Positions 956 to 12,638 of a stretch of 17,302 bases of DNA are shown here, one piece after another. The stretch covers positions 1 through 17,302 of the forward strand of contig QMWA01000014.1 of NCBI GenBank assembly GCA_003661385.1. The letters are read 5' to 3'. A model generated the notes under the pieces. That model searched no databases, had not been told where the DNA came from, and was given only the letters and a program-made list of their open reading frames with translations. Within the stretch, counting starts at the first letter, position 1. Each line of letters opens with the position of its first letter. The position numbers and the translations under genes were made by a program. This stretch comes from Thermoproteota archaeon (lineage in GTDB: Archaea; Korarchaeota; Korarchaeia; B14-G2).

Positions 956-1039
956 GCCCCGGTGGCGTAGCTGGTTAGCGCGGCCGCCTCGTAGTGTTGA
1001 GAGAGCGGCAGGGCGAGGGTTCGAATCCCTCCCGGGGCT
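956..1039 (+). tRNA. tRNA-Thr (anticodon CGU) with a 10-nt intron at 994-1003
   Basis: Full cloverleaf: acceptor GCCCCGG (956-962) with CCGGGGC (1032-1038), D stem GCGT/GCGC, anticodon stem GCCGC (983-987) with GCGGC (1005-1009), T arm GAGGG-TTCGAAT-CCCTC. The discriminator is T at 1039, as expected for archaeal tRNA-Thr. Seventeen bases lie in the anticodon loop, so 10 must be removed. A relaxed BHB places the cuts after position 37: CTCG (988-991) pairs with TGAG (998-1001), with bulges TA^G and AG^A. The spliced loop is CTCGTAA with anticodon CGU, reading ACG. CCA is not encoded. The gene ends on the base before the nop10 stop codon of the opposite strand. C32 is a possible TrmJ target. 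Confidence 0.93.
994..1003 (+). other. 10-nt tRNA intron (canonical position 37/38)
   Basis: GTGTTGAGAG. The 4-bp central helix CTCG/TGAG contains one G-U pair and is closed directly by a six-base loop, so the 5' bulge lies in the loop (bulge-helix-loop form). The outer helix is the anticodon stem. Cutting after the second base of each three-base bulge gives exactly this intron and restores a seven-base anticodon loop. Confidence 0.8.
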
Positions 1040-1207
1040 CTAGATAAGCCCGACCTTAATCAGCCTATGTGGATCCTTAGGACTATAATCTGGGGGTGGT
1101 GCTGGAATAGTTCTTTTGCCGCACTTTGGGCATTCTTCTCTGAGAGTATATGCTAGGCAGGAGAGACACTTCCTTATTTTGCTCTTTCCTCTTCTAGCAG
1201 GCGGCAT
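1040..1207 (-). CDS. nop10: Nop10, H/ACA RNP pseudouridylation subunit (55 aa)
   Basis: A short frame read by hand from the sequence. The product has the Nop10 pattern: KCLSCLAYTL (residues 13-22), ECPKCG (25-30), then the proline-rich PAPPPDYSPKDPH (35-47), which in the family wraps around the Cbf5 catalytic subunit. The two Cys pairs C14/C17 and C26/C29 form the small zinc knuckle. Nop10 works with Cbf5, Gar1 and L7Ae in RNA-guided pseudouridine formation in rRNA. The only suitable start is ATG at 1205-1207, inside the aIF2alpha coding end, giving a 34-base overlap; the basic N-terminal extension MPPARRGKSK is slightly longer than usual. The gene is last in the series with PriS, GINS, L44e, S27e and aIF2alpha, a familiar archaeal grouping. 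Its stop codon touches the 3' end of the convergent tRNA-Thr. Confidence 0.93.
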   Translation of the reverse strand: MPPARRGKSKIRKCLSCLAYTLREECPKCGKRTIPAPPPDYSPKDPHRLIKVGLI

Positions 1208-7481: not shown

Positions 7482-8079
7482 TTTTAGCCCCCCTAACTAT
7501 GTGCTCGATCATCTGCTGAGGTGAGGTCGCCAGCTGATAGCCCCCCTCAACCTCTCTTAAAATCCCCTGCTCTAGGCACTCCTCTAGAATGTCCTCTGGA
7601 TGTATTCCTGTCTTCAAGGTACAAAGTGCTAGCAAAGTGCTTATGTACCTTGTTCTAACAAGCTTCAAAGCTATTCTGTAGGCTTCTCCAAACTCCATAG
7701 CCAGCCTCTCCATCTCCTCAACTCCTATGTCTGAATAAACCGCTTGCTCCTCCTTAGAGTTGAATACCTTGTGCCCCTCTGACCTTATTGCCTCAATTAT
7801 AGCAGCTATTGTTGCTCTCCCAGCTTTCTCTTGAACCCACCAGTAGGGATACCTCCTAAGCCCCCCTCTAGGCTTATATATCCCTATGAAGTCTCTGACT
7901 GCTTCCTTAATCCTCCACTCTACCTCAGAGTCCACCATCCTGCTATCATAGACTATCTCAACCTTCCTCCCCCTATATTTGACTCTAAATTCTCCTCTTT
8001 TTGCTCGTTTTCTCAGAATTTCTATAACCTTCTCCACTTCAGCTACGCTACTGACGTTAAGTGATAGCTTCCGCTTCAC
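7468..8079 (-). CDS. DUF2067 family protein
   Basis: About 203 residues from GTG at 8077-8079. This resembles the crenarchaeal DUF2067 family, of unknown function. Seen: an N-terminal alpha-beta part (KLSLNVSSVAEVEKVIEILRKRAKRGEFRV then GRKVEIVYD), a basic PRGGLRRYPYWWVQEK segment, and a mostly helical C-terminal half. No catalytic motif or membrane segment is visible. GGTGGGGA lies about 6 bases before the GTG at 8079, while no ribosome binding site precedes the outer ATG at 8106, so I prefer the shorter form. It sits between csl4 (23-base overlap) and rpoL (14-base overlap), so a role in RNA handling is the obvious but unproven guess. Confidence 0.7.
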   Translation of the reverse strand: MKRKLSLNVSSVAEVEKVIEILRKRAKRGEFRVKYRGRKVEIVYDSRMVDSEVEWRIKEAVRDFIGIYKPRGGLRRYPYWWVQEKAGRATIAAIIEAIRSEGHKVFNSKEEQAVYSDIGVEEMERLAMEFGEAYRIALKLVRTRYISTLLALCTLKTGIHPEDILEECLEQGILREVEGGYQLATSPQQMIEHIVRGAKSEGK

Positions 8080-8629
8080 TCTCCCCACCTTTAAGCTGCA
8101 GACCATAGTAATATGATACTCTAACAGCAGTATCTACTCTACCACAGCTATTACAAACAAGGCTATAACCATATCTCTTCCTTAGAGTCCCACAATACCC
8201 ACACATAGACCATACTATGCCTATCTCTTTCATGCCGGGAGGCATGTCTAGGAGAATCTGCTTTCCCACTATACTGCTAACTCTTGCTATAATGATATCT
8301 GAAACATTAAGTTCGCCTGTACTCTCCTGCTGCAGAAGAGCTGCCGTGAAGGGGTTCTTTAGGACTCTAATCCTCTTCTCACTCTTCCATAGCCCCCAGA
8401 CCTTTGTTAATACGACTATCCCGTTTTTCCCGGTTATTTCTGCTAGAACAAGCTGCCCTACTGCTGGGATCCCATGCTCTTTAACTTTATGTATCCTCAC
8501 CTTTCTGCCGCTCACCTCTAGTACACCAACATACTTAGCGCATATCACACCATCTCTCTGATAAGTTCCTTCTCCTCCCATATAGGCCTCTGCTACTCCT
8601 AGCTCTTCTCCAGGCACCACTACACTCAT
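8057..8629 (-). CDS. csl4: Exosome complex cap protein Csl4
   Basis: 190 residues. The N-terminal domain shows the family hallmark PGEELGVAEAYMGGEGTY (6-23). An S1 RNA-binding domain follows (about 57-130, VGQLVLAEIT then DIIIARVSSIVGKQILLDM). A C-terminal zinc ribbon uses C143, C146, C159 and C162. Csl4 and Rrp4 form alternative caps on the Rrp41-Rrp42 ring and, with DnaG, steer RNAs into the 3'-5' degradation chamber. Its ATG overlaps the stop of the methyltransferase gene as ATGA, and its end overlaps the DUF2067 gene, all signs of a single message. Confidence 0.95.
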   Translation of the reverse strand: MSVVVPGEELGVAEAYMGGEGTYQRDGVICAKYVGVLEVSGRKVRIHKVKEHGIPAVGQLVLAEITGKNGIVVLTKVWGLWKSEKRIRVLKNPFTAALLQQESTGELNVSDIIIARVSSIVGKQILLDMPPGMKEIGIVWSMCGYCGTLRKRYGYSLVCNSCGRVDTAVRVSYYYGLQLKGGESEAEAIT

Positions 8630-9279
8630 TTAACCACCTCAATCCTTATCATGTCGACATTAACCTCATGTCTAAGCTCTCTATGGAAGTCCATCGTTGG
8701 AGGTATAGGCATTACCGCCTCAATTAGATGGGTCACTCTGCCCCCTATCTCTTCTATCTTCCTAAGTATGAACTTTCTGGTTGCCCTTTTATGTATGCTA
8801 TAAACGACTCTTGCCGTCTCCACAGCCCTCCTCAGAAACAATACATCAGCTCCCCTCCTCCTTACGCCGAAAGGTGGGTTTTGGACCACCGTATCAGCTT
8901 CTATACCCAGTTTCTCTCTGAGATCTGCTTGAATGAATTCCATACAGCATATAACACGCATTCTTCTCGCATTCTTCATTGCAAGGGCAAGCATACTCCT
9001 ATCGATGTCTACACAAATGATCTTGCTAGCTCCCATCATAGCTGAGGCGATGCCCAGGATTCCTGTGCCGCATCCAAGGTCTGCTACAGTCTTCTTCTCT
9101 ATGTCTCCCATCCTCCATGCAAAGTATACTAGCCTAGCTGCTATGTAAGGTGGTGTTCTATATTGCTCTAGCTCAACCTTGGAGTACACTGGAGCCTCTA
9201 TATGCTCCAACTCTATTTCTAGCTCTTTTTCACCAGATGGCTTTCTTTTACTGTGGCTAGCAGGGCATATAGCCTTCAC
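8626..9279 (-). CDS. METTL5-like N6-adenine methyltransferase (COG2263)
   Basis: 217 residues from GTG at 9277-9279, which overlaps the uL16 stop as GTGA. Class I methyltransferase motifs: EQYRTP (38-43), SAM-binding VADLGCGTGILGI (65-77), VDID (90-93) and the catalytic NPPFG (134-138), which marks base-amino methylation. EQY-x-T-P before the SAM loop and NPPF are the combination seen in METTL5, which in eukaryotes makes one m6A in 18S rRNA; archaeal relatives probably modify 16S rRNA. Its place between uL16 and csl4 agrees with an rRNA target. The substrate is inferred, the chemistry fairly sure. The N-terminal 25 residues are poorly conserved and the real start could be slightly later. Confidence 0.87.
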   Translation of the reverse strand: MKAICPASHSKRKPSGEKELEIELEHIEAPVYSKVELEQYRTPPYIAARLVYFAWRMGDIEKKTVADLGCGTGILGIASAMMGASKIICVDIDRSMLALAMKNARRMRVICCMEFIQADLREKLGIEADTVVQNPPFGVRRRGADVLFLRRAVETARVVYSIHKRATRKFILRKIEEIGGRVTHLIEAVMPIPPTMDFHRELRHEVNVDMIRIEVVK

Positions 9280-9779
9280 GCTGCTCTCTCTACTATAACT
9301 GATGTAGGAGGAGGGACTTTTACTTTCACCCTTTGAAGGAGCCGCTTTGCAAGCTCTAAATGCTCTTTATTGACCCACACAGTAAGTATAGGTCTTCCCC
9401 TCCTGACTATTGCTCCTGCTACTTCAGGCCTCCCGAAGGCGAGTCTCATGCCCTTCTGTAGCCTTTCTGCTTTATGCACTCCAGCTAGAGCATGCTTCCT
9501 TATTATGTGATGTGGATAGGCTCTCACCTGATACTTGTAGTTTTCTGAGCCTATTTGCTTGTCGAATGTCTTCATTGTTAATACTCTTAAGGCCTCTAGT
9601 GCATTGCTTCTAACAACTATGTCCGCGTCTGCGACGATTGTTAAGGCGTATTCGAAGTCCTTATCCCAGCTTCCTCCTACAAATACTCTTATCTTCGGAT
9701 CTGGAGGGCCTTTGATGTACTCTTTACGTGTATATGGCCTCTTTACACGTCTGTCGCATCTCCCTGGCCTGAGTGGCAT
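9276..9779 (-). CDS. rpl10e: Ribosomal protein uL16 (L10e)
   Basis: 167 residues. Family signatures: MPLRPGRCDRRVKRPYTRKEY at the N terminus, PPDPKIRVF, EALRVLTMKTFDKQIG, AYPHHIIRKHALAG and RLQKGMRLAFGRP. It is a late-joining large-subunit protein near the peptidyl-transferase centre and the tRNA CCA ends. The start ATG at 9779 is fixed by the conserved N terminus. This creates a 56-base overlap with trmJ, while its end overlaps the methyltransferase start as GTGA. Some normally invariant positions differ (RKHALAGVHKAER instead of the usual ENK-ATGAGADR-like stretch), so it is slightly divergent at the loop that approaches the active site. Confidence 0.95.
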   Translation of the reverse strand: MPLRPGRCDRRVKRPYTRKEYIKGPPDPKIRVFVGGSWDKDFEYALTIVADADIVVRSNALEALRVLTMKTFDKQIGSENYKYQVRAYPHHIIRKHALAGVHKAERLQKGMRLAFGRPEVAGAIVRRGRPILTVWVNKEHLELAKRLLQRVKVKVPPPTSVIVERAA

Positions 9780-10512
9780 GGTTTTCCCCTATCCTCCTAG
9801 TCACCCTCTTTAATAAACCAACTATCCTTTCACACTCCTCATGGGTCAGCATATGGGGGGCACGCCTAAGAAGTACTCGCCTGAGCAGCAGGGCAGCGCT
9901 CCTCTTTTTGAACTCAGGGTAGCTTGCTGCCTCAGCAAGCTTCTCTATGCAAATGATCAGCTCTTTCCTCAGCCTTGGATGGGGAGGCTTAGCAAGCTTA
10001 GTTCTATGCCTCAAGCTTCTCCTTAGCTCATAGAGGATTATTGCTGCTGCTACTGCTAAGTTCAGGGTAGGATATTGCATGTCGGTTGGTACTCTAACAA
10101 GTACATCGCACATTGCTAGCTCTTCGACTTTCAGCCCAATGCTCTCTCTGCCAAACACTATCGCCATTCCAGAGGGTGACCATTTAAAGCTGCTGAAAAA
10201 CAGGTCGACATCAATTACCTTTCTAACAACGGCTCTCGGCCCCCCAGACTTTGCTGTCGTCCCTATGACCAGTGTACTGCCTTCAATGGCTTCAGCAAGG
10301 CTATTATATTTCATAGCCTTCTCTAGCACGTCTACTGCCCTCCTGGCCGTTACCTCAGCGCGTTTCCTCCAATTGCTGACCGGGTTAACGAGGACTAGCC
10401 TCCTATATCCAAGGTTCTTCATCACTCTAGCCACGCTCCCTATATTAAGCGGGTCTTCCGGCTCAACTAGCACAACGAGGACTTCTTTGAGATGCTTTAA
10501 TGCCTCACTCAT
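9724..10512 (-). CDS. trmJ: SPOUT tRNA 2'-O-methyltransferase TrmJ
   Basis: 262 residues from ATG at 10510-10512. SPOUT (knotted) motifs: PLNIGSVARVMKNLG (21-35), AIVFGRESIGL (117-127) and YPTLNLAVAAAIILYE (147-162). TrmJ methylates the ribose of residue 32 in tRNA anticodon loops; both tRNAs in this window have C32. AGGAGGAAG about 8-10 bases before this ATG decides the start; a frame-open ATG at 10563 lacks such a signal. After the catalytic domain follows a basic helical tail of about 90 residues. Its last 18 codons overlap uL16. It follows the EF-2-like gene by 74 bases, with no clear promoter between. Confidence 0.9.
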   Translation of the reverse strand: MSEALKHLKEVLVVLVEPEDPLNIGSVARVMKNLGYRRLVLVNPVSNWRKRAEVTARRAVDVLEKAMKYNSLAEAIEGSTLVIGTTAKSGGPRAVVRKVIDVDLFFSSFKWSPSGMAIVFGRESIGLKVEELAMCDVLVRVPTDMQYPTLNLAVAAAIILYELRRSLRHRTKLAKPPHPRLRKELIICIEKLAEAASYPEFKKRSAALLLRRVLLRRAPHMLTHEECERIVGLLKRVTRRIGENHATQAREMRQTCKEAIYT

Positions 10513-10586
10513 GCTCTTACTTCCTCCTAGAAACCTACCTCCAGTGACTTGACCACTTAGCATTAGTCCATGCTAGCAGAATGCTT

Positions 10587-12638
10587 TCAGCTTAAGCCAC
10601 TTAAGTACCCTCTTCTCCTTCTTCTTTCCTCCATAGCTCTCTCTGCTGCACTTTTTTCCATCTGCCTATAACCTGAGAGCTGTATGGTATAGATGGCTCT
10701 GCCGGATGTTGCTGCTCTGAGCTCGCTAGACAGCCCGAATGTCTCGGATAAGGGTATTTCCCCTTTAACTACCGAGTATACTCCTGTAGAGCTTATTGTG
10801 TGTATGTTACACCTTCTCTTCCTAAGTACTCCCTCAACTACACCGACCAGCTCTAATGGTGTATAGACTTCTATTTCACCAACAGGCTCGAATAAGATTG
10901 GTTTAGCAGCTAAGAATGACTTTATGAGCCCTCTTGCGAGAGCTGCCAGCACCTGAGCAGCGTTTAGCTTGCCCCTACAGACTGCTTCTTTGATCTCAAA
11001 GAAGCTTCTCCACACAGGTTCCCCACAGAGGGGGCCTCTCCTAGAGAATTCCAAAAGTACCCTGCGCATAAGCTCTCTGTCTACCTCTAGTGTGTGGGGA
11101 GCTTTCAGAATGCACTCCATTTCCGTCTTTATAATGTTGCCGCCATTCATCTGTGCTCTTTCAATCGGCTGGCATACTAGTGTTAGCTTACAGCTTCCAT
11201 CTGGGCTTACTACAGCTATGTCCCCCGAGTTCTCGGTGGCTTTCTCACGTAGGACTACTGTTGGCTCTCCAGTTCTGACAGGTGCAATCTCAGCAATGAA
11301 CCCTGCCACTATCTCAAGCTGAAGCTCTCCAACCCCATGTACTACGATCTCACCGGTTTCTTCATCCACCTGATAGCCTATCAGAGGCTCTCTTAACCTC
11401 AGCTTCTCCAGCTCGGCTGTTACCTTCTCAACGTCGCTAGGGTTCTCAGGCTCTATTGTCACGTATACGACAGGCTCCGATAGGTAATATGGGGGCTCGA
11501 CAGGTTTGACCTCTCTAGCGTCGCTGCCTACTATCGTCTCTCCAGAGAAGACTTTCTTAATCCCGGTGCATACTGCTATATTCCCGGCTAATACCCTCTC
11601 AACCTGGGCTTTTCCCTTCCCTACTGGTATGTAAACAGCTTGTACCTTGCTTCTAGCTCCTGCCCCCACCAGATAAAGCTCAGTGCCATGTGATATGCTT
11701 CCAGAGAAGATTCTAATCGTGGGTATAGGCCTACCTGAGCTATCAAAGTCTATGTTACCGACGACAGCTATCAGAGGTCCTTCATCGCTGCAGCTTGCTA
11801 CAGCTTTTCTCTCGGCGTCTCCAAGTTTACCATCCCAAAGGGCGGCTACCCTGTATGCTTGAGCTTCAAGTGGAGATGGGGCGCTCTTATAGACCTCCAT
11901 CATCACTGCTTTGTGAAGTGGTAGCTTGCTGCTCAGCTTCTCTCCTCTCCTATATGCTTCTACTATGTTCTTTATTCTAACCCCTGTTTCTCTAGCTATC
12001 TCAGCTGTCACCCCCCAGCCATCAAGCGCTGATCCAAGAATCATTCCCTTATCAGCCTTTATCCTCCAGTTGCTGTACCTTTCTGGGAGGAACGCCTCTA
12101 TAAGCTGATTGACATCTCCAATGATCTCAGCTACCCTCTTTCTGATCTCATCTCCATTATACTGCAGCTCGAGAATAAGCCTATCAACCTTATTTATGAA
12201 CAGCAGAGGCTTAACCATTTCCTTCAAGGCAAGCCTAAGGTAGTTCTCTGTCTGCACCATTACTCCTTCGACAGCGTCTACAACTAAGATCACAGAGTCT
12301 ACTAACCTCAAGCTCCTGCTAACATACCCGCTGAAGTCTATGTGTCCTGGTGTGTCGACTAAGTTCACTAGCAGCTTCATATCGCTTCCACTGTAAATAA
12401 ATGTGCAGCTAGCCGACTTCACCGTCATTCTTCTCTTCTTCTCCACTTCAAGGTAATCTAAGTACAGTAGGGTTCCAGCTAGCCCATCTGATATGATACC
12501 CCCTGCAGAAAGAAGTCTGTCGCTTAGAGTGGTTTTCCCGTGGTCTACGTGGGCTATTATCCCGATATTCCTGATAGCATCCTTGCTTTTCATGAGGTTC
12601 GATATTTCCTTGAGCTTCTCTCTACTAACTCTAGGCAT
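10587..12638 (-). CDS. EF-2-like GTPase lacking the diphthamide site
   Basis: 683 residues; archaeal EF-2 usually has about 730-740. G motifs are intact: AHVDHGKTT (29-37), DTPGH (95-99), NKVD (149-152), GSA (202-204). Domain II (about 290-370), III (about 385-455), IV and V (SETFGLSSELRAATSGRA) follow in EF-2 order, and the N terminus matches archaeal EF-2 closely. Differences: the switch I RGIT motif reads RRMT (69-72); domain IV is shortened by roughly 35-40 residues before GPLCGEP (535-541); the tip loop that should read HEDPAHRGPAQ reads RGKLNAAQ (555-562), so the diphthamide histidine is replaced by K557 in my alignment; the C-terminal tryptophan segment is replaced by a very basic tail (ERRRRRGYLSGLS). 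This is most likely an EF-2 paralogue rather than the housekeeping translocase, but a lineage-specific EF-2 without diphthamide cannot be excluded. GGAG lies about 8 bases before the ATG. Confidence 0.9.
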   Translation of the reverse strand: MPRVSREKLKEISNLMKSKDAIRNIGIIAHVDHGKTTLSDRLLSAGGIISDGLAGTLLYLDYLEVEKKRRMTVKSASCTFIYSGSDMKLLVNLVDTPGHIDFSGYVSRSLRLVDSVILVVDAVEGVMVQTENYLRLALKEMVKPLLFINKVDRLILELQYNGDEIRKRVAEIIGDVNQLIEAFLPERYSNWRIKADKGMILGSALDGWGVTAEIARETGVRIKNIVEAYRRGEKLSSKLPLHKAVMMEVYKSAPSPLEAQAYRVAALWDGKLGDAERKAVASCSDEGPLIAVVGNIDFDSSGRPIPTIRIFSGSISHGTELYLVGAGARSKVQAVYIPVGKGKAQVERVLAGNIAVCTGIKKVFSGETIVGSDAREVKPVEPPYYLSEPVVYVTIEPENPSDVEKVTAELEKLRLREPLIGYQVDEETGEIVVHGVGELQLEIVAGFIAEIAPVRTGEPTVVLREKATENSGDIAVVSPDGSCKLTLVCQPIERAQMNGGNIIKTEMECILKAPHTLEVDRELMRRVLLEFSRRGPLCGEPVWRSFFEIKEAVCRGKLNAAQVLAALARGLIKSFLAAKPILFEPVGEIEVYTPLELVGVVEGVLRKRRCNIHTISSTGVYSVVKGEIPLSETFGLSSELRAATSGRAIYTIQLSGYRQMEKSAAERAMEERRRRRGYLSGLS

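Follow-up and report, generated by a model that had tools for sequence, protein, structure and literature searches.

An EF-2-type GTPase without the diphthamide histidine at the canonical EF-2 locus of a korarchaeal genome that encodes a second, HTG-type EF-2

The stretch of DNA analysed here (the window, 17,302 nucleotides) encodes a real EF-2-type GTPase from which the diphthamide histidine is missing, as a preliminary description of the sequence had proposed, and gene order indicates that this gene is the native korarchaeal EF-2. Nearly all archaea have EF-2, as a rule encoded by a single gene. The window, contig C14, belongs to a fragmented genome of 1.74 Mb in 206 contigs (91% complete, 1.9% contamination), which encodes another EF-2 on contig C61. 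Taken as a whole, the explanation that we favor, and consider probable from the comparison of sequences, is that a korarchaeal lineage without dph genes had its native EF-2 displaced by a transferred translocase of the HTG type.

The window EF-2 and its domain IV

The gene is a minus-strand open reading frame of 683 residues (positions 10587-12638), uninterrupted and open through domain V to its end. Pfam matches to GTP_EFTU, EFG_III and EFG_C, the signatures of the GTPase domain, domain III and domain V of EF-2 and EF-G, were found along the protein. The motifs of the GTPase are all intact, namely AHVDHGKT (G1, the P-loop, 12531-12554), T72, DTPGH (G3, 12342-12356), NKVD (G4, 12183-12194) and GSA, the positions given being on the minus strand. 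Against the NCBIfam archaeal EF-2 equivalog model TIGR00490 the protein scored 521.3 bits, below the cut-off of 738.45; the HTG copy and the second copy of the Odin-type genome G038 are likewise under this cut-off (659 and 639). An AlphaFold2 model built from 12 sequences shows a complete five-domain EF-2 fold (pLDDT 83, pTM 0.80), the closest solved structure is the archaeal EF-2 6u44 (Z 53 over 663 residues), and structure searches returned the expected EF-2 and Snu114 matches only. Domains, motifs, model and structural match agree with the preliminary view that the protein follows EF-2 domain by domain.

The divergence is concentrated in domain IV. In the alignment, the window EF-2 has a lysine in the diphthamide column, which holds histidine in all 44 canonical EF-2s aligned. 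The surrounding tip loop reads RGKLNAAQ (residues 555-562, 10953-10976, minus strand), is three residues shorter than the canonical loop, and does not follow the HxDxxHRGxxQ pattern with its diphthamide histidine. The second tip loop is SPDGSCK (residues 478-484, 11187-11207, minus strand) instead of the SPNKHN type of canonical EF-2s, so that the SPNxHN motif is lost. The distance from the position of this motif to the GPL(C/A)GEP segment is 57 residues, compared to 90-93 in most canonical EF-2s, and the roughly 35 missing residues belong to the archaeal domain IV insert, in the region of residues 492-522 (11073-11165, minus strand). In domain IV, whose modelling was suggested as a check in the preliminary description, the AlphaFold2 model has a short turn (residues 555-559) at the expected position of the diphthamide loop, with low confidence at residues 495-516. 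The lysine, the deletion of a few residues in the loop and a domain IV about 35-40 residues short before GPLCGEP, all described earlier from the sequence, were borne out by the alignment. A sequencing error as the source of the altered loop, which had been named as a possible objection, is very unlikely because the frame is open and the syntenic EF-2 of another family, represented by genome G021, also has no histidine.

Gene order and the second EF-2

On the minus strand, next to the window EF-2, there are genes for a SpoU-family RNA methyltransferase (9724-10563), ribosomal protein L10e (9276-9779), a small-domain methyltransferase (8626-9279) and a Csl4-like exosome subunit (8057-8629). The first three were identified by Pfam and the last was named from its gene context. 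The same order is found in five sister genomes, where SpoU, L10e, the methyltransferase, Csl4 and further shared genes come after a canonical EF-2 (IHEDPAHRGPAQ), and a short sixth contig has the order EF-2, SpoU, L10e. In the f3 family (G021) the EF-2 gene lies in a matching block from which the methyltransferase is missing; the gene is intact and its loop (LSPNPKLRGYQQ) is the histidine-less one mentioned above. The window EF-2 is thus found at the native korarchaeal EF-2 position. Elsewhere in the window, a tRNA gene at 956-1040 (plus strand) has an anticodon that ARAGORN could not read; the sequence is compatible with a tRNA-Thr(CGT) in which some 10 additional bases follow the anticodon and might be a small intron.

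Free trees placed the window and f3 EF-2s together on long branches, outside the korarchaeal EF-2s, a placement that is unreliable because of the length of these branches. Forced grouping of both with the korarchaeal EF-2s was not rejected (p-AU 0.22 and 0.21), and neither was a single clade of all second or degenerate copies together with the window and f3 proteins (p-AU 0.31). Because both constraints survive the AU test, it is gene order that carries the argument for a native EF-2. These trees are nonetheless relevant to an alternative in which a single ancient family of paralogues (aEF-2p sensu Narrowe et al.), common to Asgard archaea and korarchaea through an old duplication or transfer, includes the window EF-2. 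The unrejected single clade and the free trees that keep the window and f3 proteins out of the korarchaeal EF-2s agree with this alternative. We consider it unlikely, however, since gene order puts both genes at the canonical korarchaeal EF-2 locus and a korarchaeal clade that includes them is likewise not rejected.

When the genome was searched with the window protein, contig C61 turned out to encode another EF-2, the only one besides the query; all further matches were sized like other translation GTPases. The preliminary description had recommended looking for a second EF-2 with an intact HEDxxHRGPAQ loop. The second copy is there and keeps the histidine, but its loop is HTDPAHTGYSE (VVHTDPAHTGYSEV), of the type HxDPAHTG that is here called HTG. 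The EF-2 tree, which had also been recommended, placed the C61 copy in an HTG clade with support of 100 (best identity 65%). The other members of this clade are Odin-, Heimdall- and Kariarchaea and related lineages, as well as a single record with the label Bathyarchaeota. Together with the gene order at the window locus, this placement indicates that the C61 copy is the putative newcomer, of Asgard type, and that the window gene would not be the added one. The possibility that C61 is a contaminant contig was considered and found unsupported. Its tetranucleotide composition correlates at 0.968 with its own genome, at 0.355 with the Odin-type genome and at 0.65-0.69 with a sister korarchaeon, and the adjoining Nfo gene is most similar to copies from the korarchaeal phylum and absent from the Odin-type genome. 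In a scan of a contig collection, the window EF-2 alone as a query found no relative, and an alignment of HTG-type copies used as the query matched one. The Bathyarchaeota-labelled record (WJJB01000174.1, Bin_245) carries an HTG-type EF-2 that groups with an Asgard-phylum copy, and could represent another transfer or a mislabelled contig.

The frame of the C61 EF-2 is broken near residues 60-65 by 31 nt (C61, 6433-6463, minus strand). This insert contains a 12-bp perfect stem beside a 3-4-3 bulge-helix-bulge (BHB; helix CGAC/GUCG, bulges UAA and AGU), and is the best 3-4-3 BHB of its region. Excision of the 31 nt at the standard positions restores the frame (...LLTDYDEEERKRGITIF...), with a junction, TDYDEEERKRGITIF, that agrees with the homologues. 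A frameshift or pseudogene was set aside for these reasons, and what looks like a frameshift is best explained by a candidate 31-nt BHB mRNA intron that is predicted to be spliced. A lenient BHB scan of the other contigs returned only candidates with shorter helices, such as could arise by chance. There is a precedent for BHB introns in archaeal mRNAs in cbf5 (PMC2738675).

Diphthamide genes and EF-2 pairs in related genomes

The diphthamide genes dph1/2, dph5 and dph6, also singled out earlier as worth searching for, gave no match in this 91% complete genome to PF01866 (Dph1/2), TIGR00522 (Dph5) or PF01902 (Dph6). Dph2, Dph5 and Dph6 are missing from nearly all genomes of its class too. Within the class, PF01902 matches strongly in one genome (G017) and slightly over its cut-off in three others, and the Dph5 matches of two genomes fall below the cut-off. 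Strong matches to Dph2 and Dph5 were confined to the three genomes of the 29-genome phylum that lie outside this class. Korarchaeum cryptofilum has no Dph2, Dph5 or DUF71, yet its EF-2 keeps the histidine, His603 (PMC3541065). Its canonical korarchaeal EF-2 resembles the window gene in locus, domain order and the missing Dph2, Dph5 and Dph6, whereas the window EF-2 has lost the loop. The preliminary description had left two options, a paralogue with a specialised role or the abandonment of diphthamide by the lineage. Each is partly borne out, by the second EF-2 and by the lack of Dph2, Dph5 and Dph6 matches, but the order of genes at the canonical locus argues against the window gene being an added copy.

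The korarchaeal family f2 is informative in this respect. All 21 of its aligned EF-2s keep the full HEDPAHRGPAQ loop as the single EF-2, and neither Dph2 or Dph5 above the cut-off nor an HTG-type EF-2 was found in the family. Since f2 keeps the loop without Dph2, loss of the tip tracks the presence of a second, HTG-type EF-2 and not the loss of diphthamide alone. In f3 (G021) the histidine is lost, and no HTG-type EF-2 was found in that 66% complete genome. The f2 proteins have a peculiarity of their own, as the histidine of SPNxHN is replaced by leucine in 21 of 21, the Dph-bearing relatives having histidine; the leucine is possibly a compensation for the unmodified diphthamide loop.

The same relationship was seen, across 119 genomes, in the phylum to which the Odin-type genome G038 belongs. 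An HTG-type EF-2, called at about 55% identity or more to the Odin copy with fragments included, is present in at least 94 of the 119, and Dph2 in 11, with zero overlap (hypergeometric probability 4e-9, a value that ignores the relatedness of the genomes). HTG-type copies have the histidine in 45 of 45 cases and a threonine after it in 44 of 45. Their partners, the second copies, have tips that vary freely, and just 2 of 29 retain the histidine. These two exceptions, from genomes without Dph2 (G063 and G055), keep His-Arg (LTAEHRSPSN). The EF-2s aligned from Dph-bearing genomes have canonical HRG loops. The single-contig G038 encodes an HTG-type and a degenerate EF-2 but no Dph2, and it has no further match of EF-2 size. 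For the majority of the Asgard second copies, no neighbours in common with canonical EF-2 were found, and displacement is therefore backed by synteny for the korarchaea only. The exception is the degenerate EF-2 of the Asgard-phylum genome G062 (C9, 34000-52000), which has several neighbours in common, and in the same order, with the canonical EF-2 of G026, a Dph-bearing genome of the korarchaeal phylum. This match hints that the degenerate EF-2 of G062 is also in an old native locus.

These comparisons bear on whether translocation still falls to the window EF-2, mainly or in part, despite the lack of a long tip, the HTG copy being the specialised one. The native locus of the window EF-2 and its retention of every GTPase motif would be expected in that case, and domains G to III of the window and C61 copies show about equal identity to phylum relatives (43% and 41%, respectively). 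However, both tip loops of the window EF-2 are degenerate, the tips of the Asgard second copies vary freely, unlike the strongly conserved HTG tip, and domain IV of EF-G and EF-2, tip included, is needed for efficient translocation. We regard this alternative as improbable. It is highly improbable that this incomplete assembly of 206 contigs has missed a third EF-2, of canonical type, and that both known copies are accessory, given that the single-contig G038 has the same pair without a third copy and that the canonical locus is present here, occupied by the window gene. A decaying pseudogene, which the long branch and the deletions might bring to mind, is hardly credible for a gene with a full open frame, all G motifs, domain V, a confidently predicted model of the whole fold and an intact syntenic counterpart in f3 that is histidine-less too.

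Probable displacement, possible function and known systems

In the explanation that we favor, displacement of the native EF-2, diphthamide biosynthesis would have been lost in the korarchaeal lineage holding the window gene and an HTG-type EF-2 would have been gained through transfer. This protein, with its conserved full tip, would be the current diphthamide-independent translocase, and selection on the tip of the native EF-2 would have been relaxed once the HTG-type protein translocated. It is likely, judging from these sequence patterns, that translocation has been taken over from the native EF-2. The native protein may then act as a ribosome-dependent GTPase that keeps factor-site binding and GTP hydrolysis, with the decoding centre out of its reach, and its job could consist of 50S-side duties such as release of aIF6 or subunit recycling. 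Efl1 is the eukaryotic EF-2-like GTPase that releases eIF6. A 50S-side role of this kind is weakly suggested by analogy, and we advance it tentatively. It is favored because aIF6 is encoded in this genome (a PF01912 match on contig C126), aEF-2 releases aIF6 from the 50S subunit in vitro even when unmodified, as reported for the canonical Sulfolobus solfataricus aEF-2 only (PMC8024482), and an Efl1 orthologue is reported to be absent from archaea (PMC8024482). Rather doubtful, in our estimation, is the general form of this idea, in which some archaea would have an EF-2 that does not translocate and is devoted to 50S maturation or recycling, parallel to Efl1, and that recurs when a diphthamide-independent HTG-type EF-2 takes over translocation; here the incoming EF-2 gene would have reached a korarchaeote by transfer and would carry an mRNA intron of the BHB type.

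Three other factors offer comparisons. Efl1 has EF-2 architecture and coexists with a separate translocase; the window protein is likened to it by analogy. Snu114/EFTUD2 is a full-fold EF-2 paralogue that is not a translocase (6qdv, Z 46), but it is spliceosomal and shares 25% identity, and the fold match says nothing on function. To our knowledge, the spliceosome is absent from archaea. Labour is split between two translocase-like GTPases in the case of mitochondrial EF-G2, the recycling-specific EF-G, which differs in its bacterial lineage and in having RRF as its partner. We know of no RRF in archaea.

EF-2 paralogues of diphthamide-less archaea are reportedly the subject of Narrowe et al. 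2018, Genome Biol Evol 10:2380. EF-2 paralogues of the kind found in the window have thus been published already, and the window protein belongs to this kind: the genome has no match to dph genes, there are two EF-2 genes, and the diphthamide residues of one are gone. As that study is presented in PMC10307638, it reported dph-less archaea with a second EF-2 missing the diphthamide residues. The present case differs in that the degenerate copy is native by gene order and the histidine-bearing copy is the apparent newcomer, in that about 35 domain IV residues have also been lost, and in the candidate intron of the newcomer gene. Displacement of the native gene as read from gene order, the intermediate stage in korarchaea, the mutual exclusion of HTG-type EF-2 and Dph2, and the candidate intron are, as far as the literature consulted goes, unreported, and the Narrowe paper may contain some of them.

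The korarchaeal phylum offers a series that consists of genomes with Dph and a canonical loop, genomes in which Dph is lost and the loop is kept, and genomes in which Dph is lost, a second EF-2 is present and the native tip is lost. This series makes it possible to tell the consequences of diphthamide loss apart from those of acquiring a second EF-2, and it yields a testable prediction on which EF-2 copy translocates. It is also a warning that, in such genomes, the native gene may be the one taken for a "paralogue", a point of consequence because EF-2 serves as a phylogenetic marker in work on eukaryote origins.
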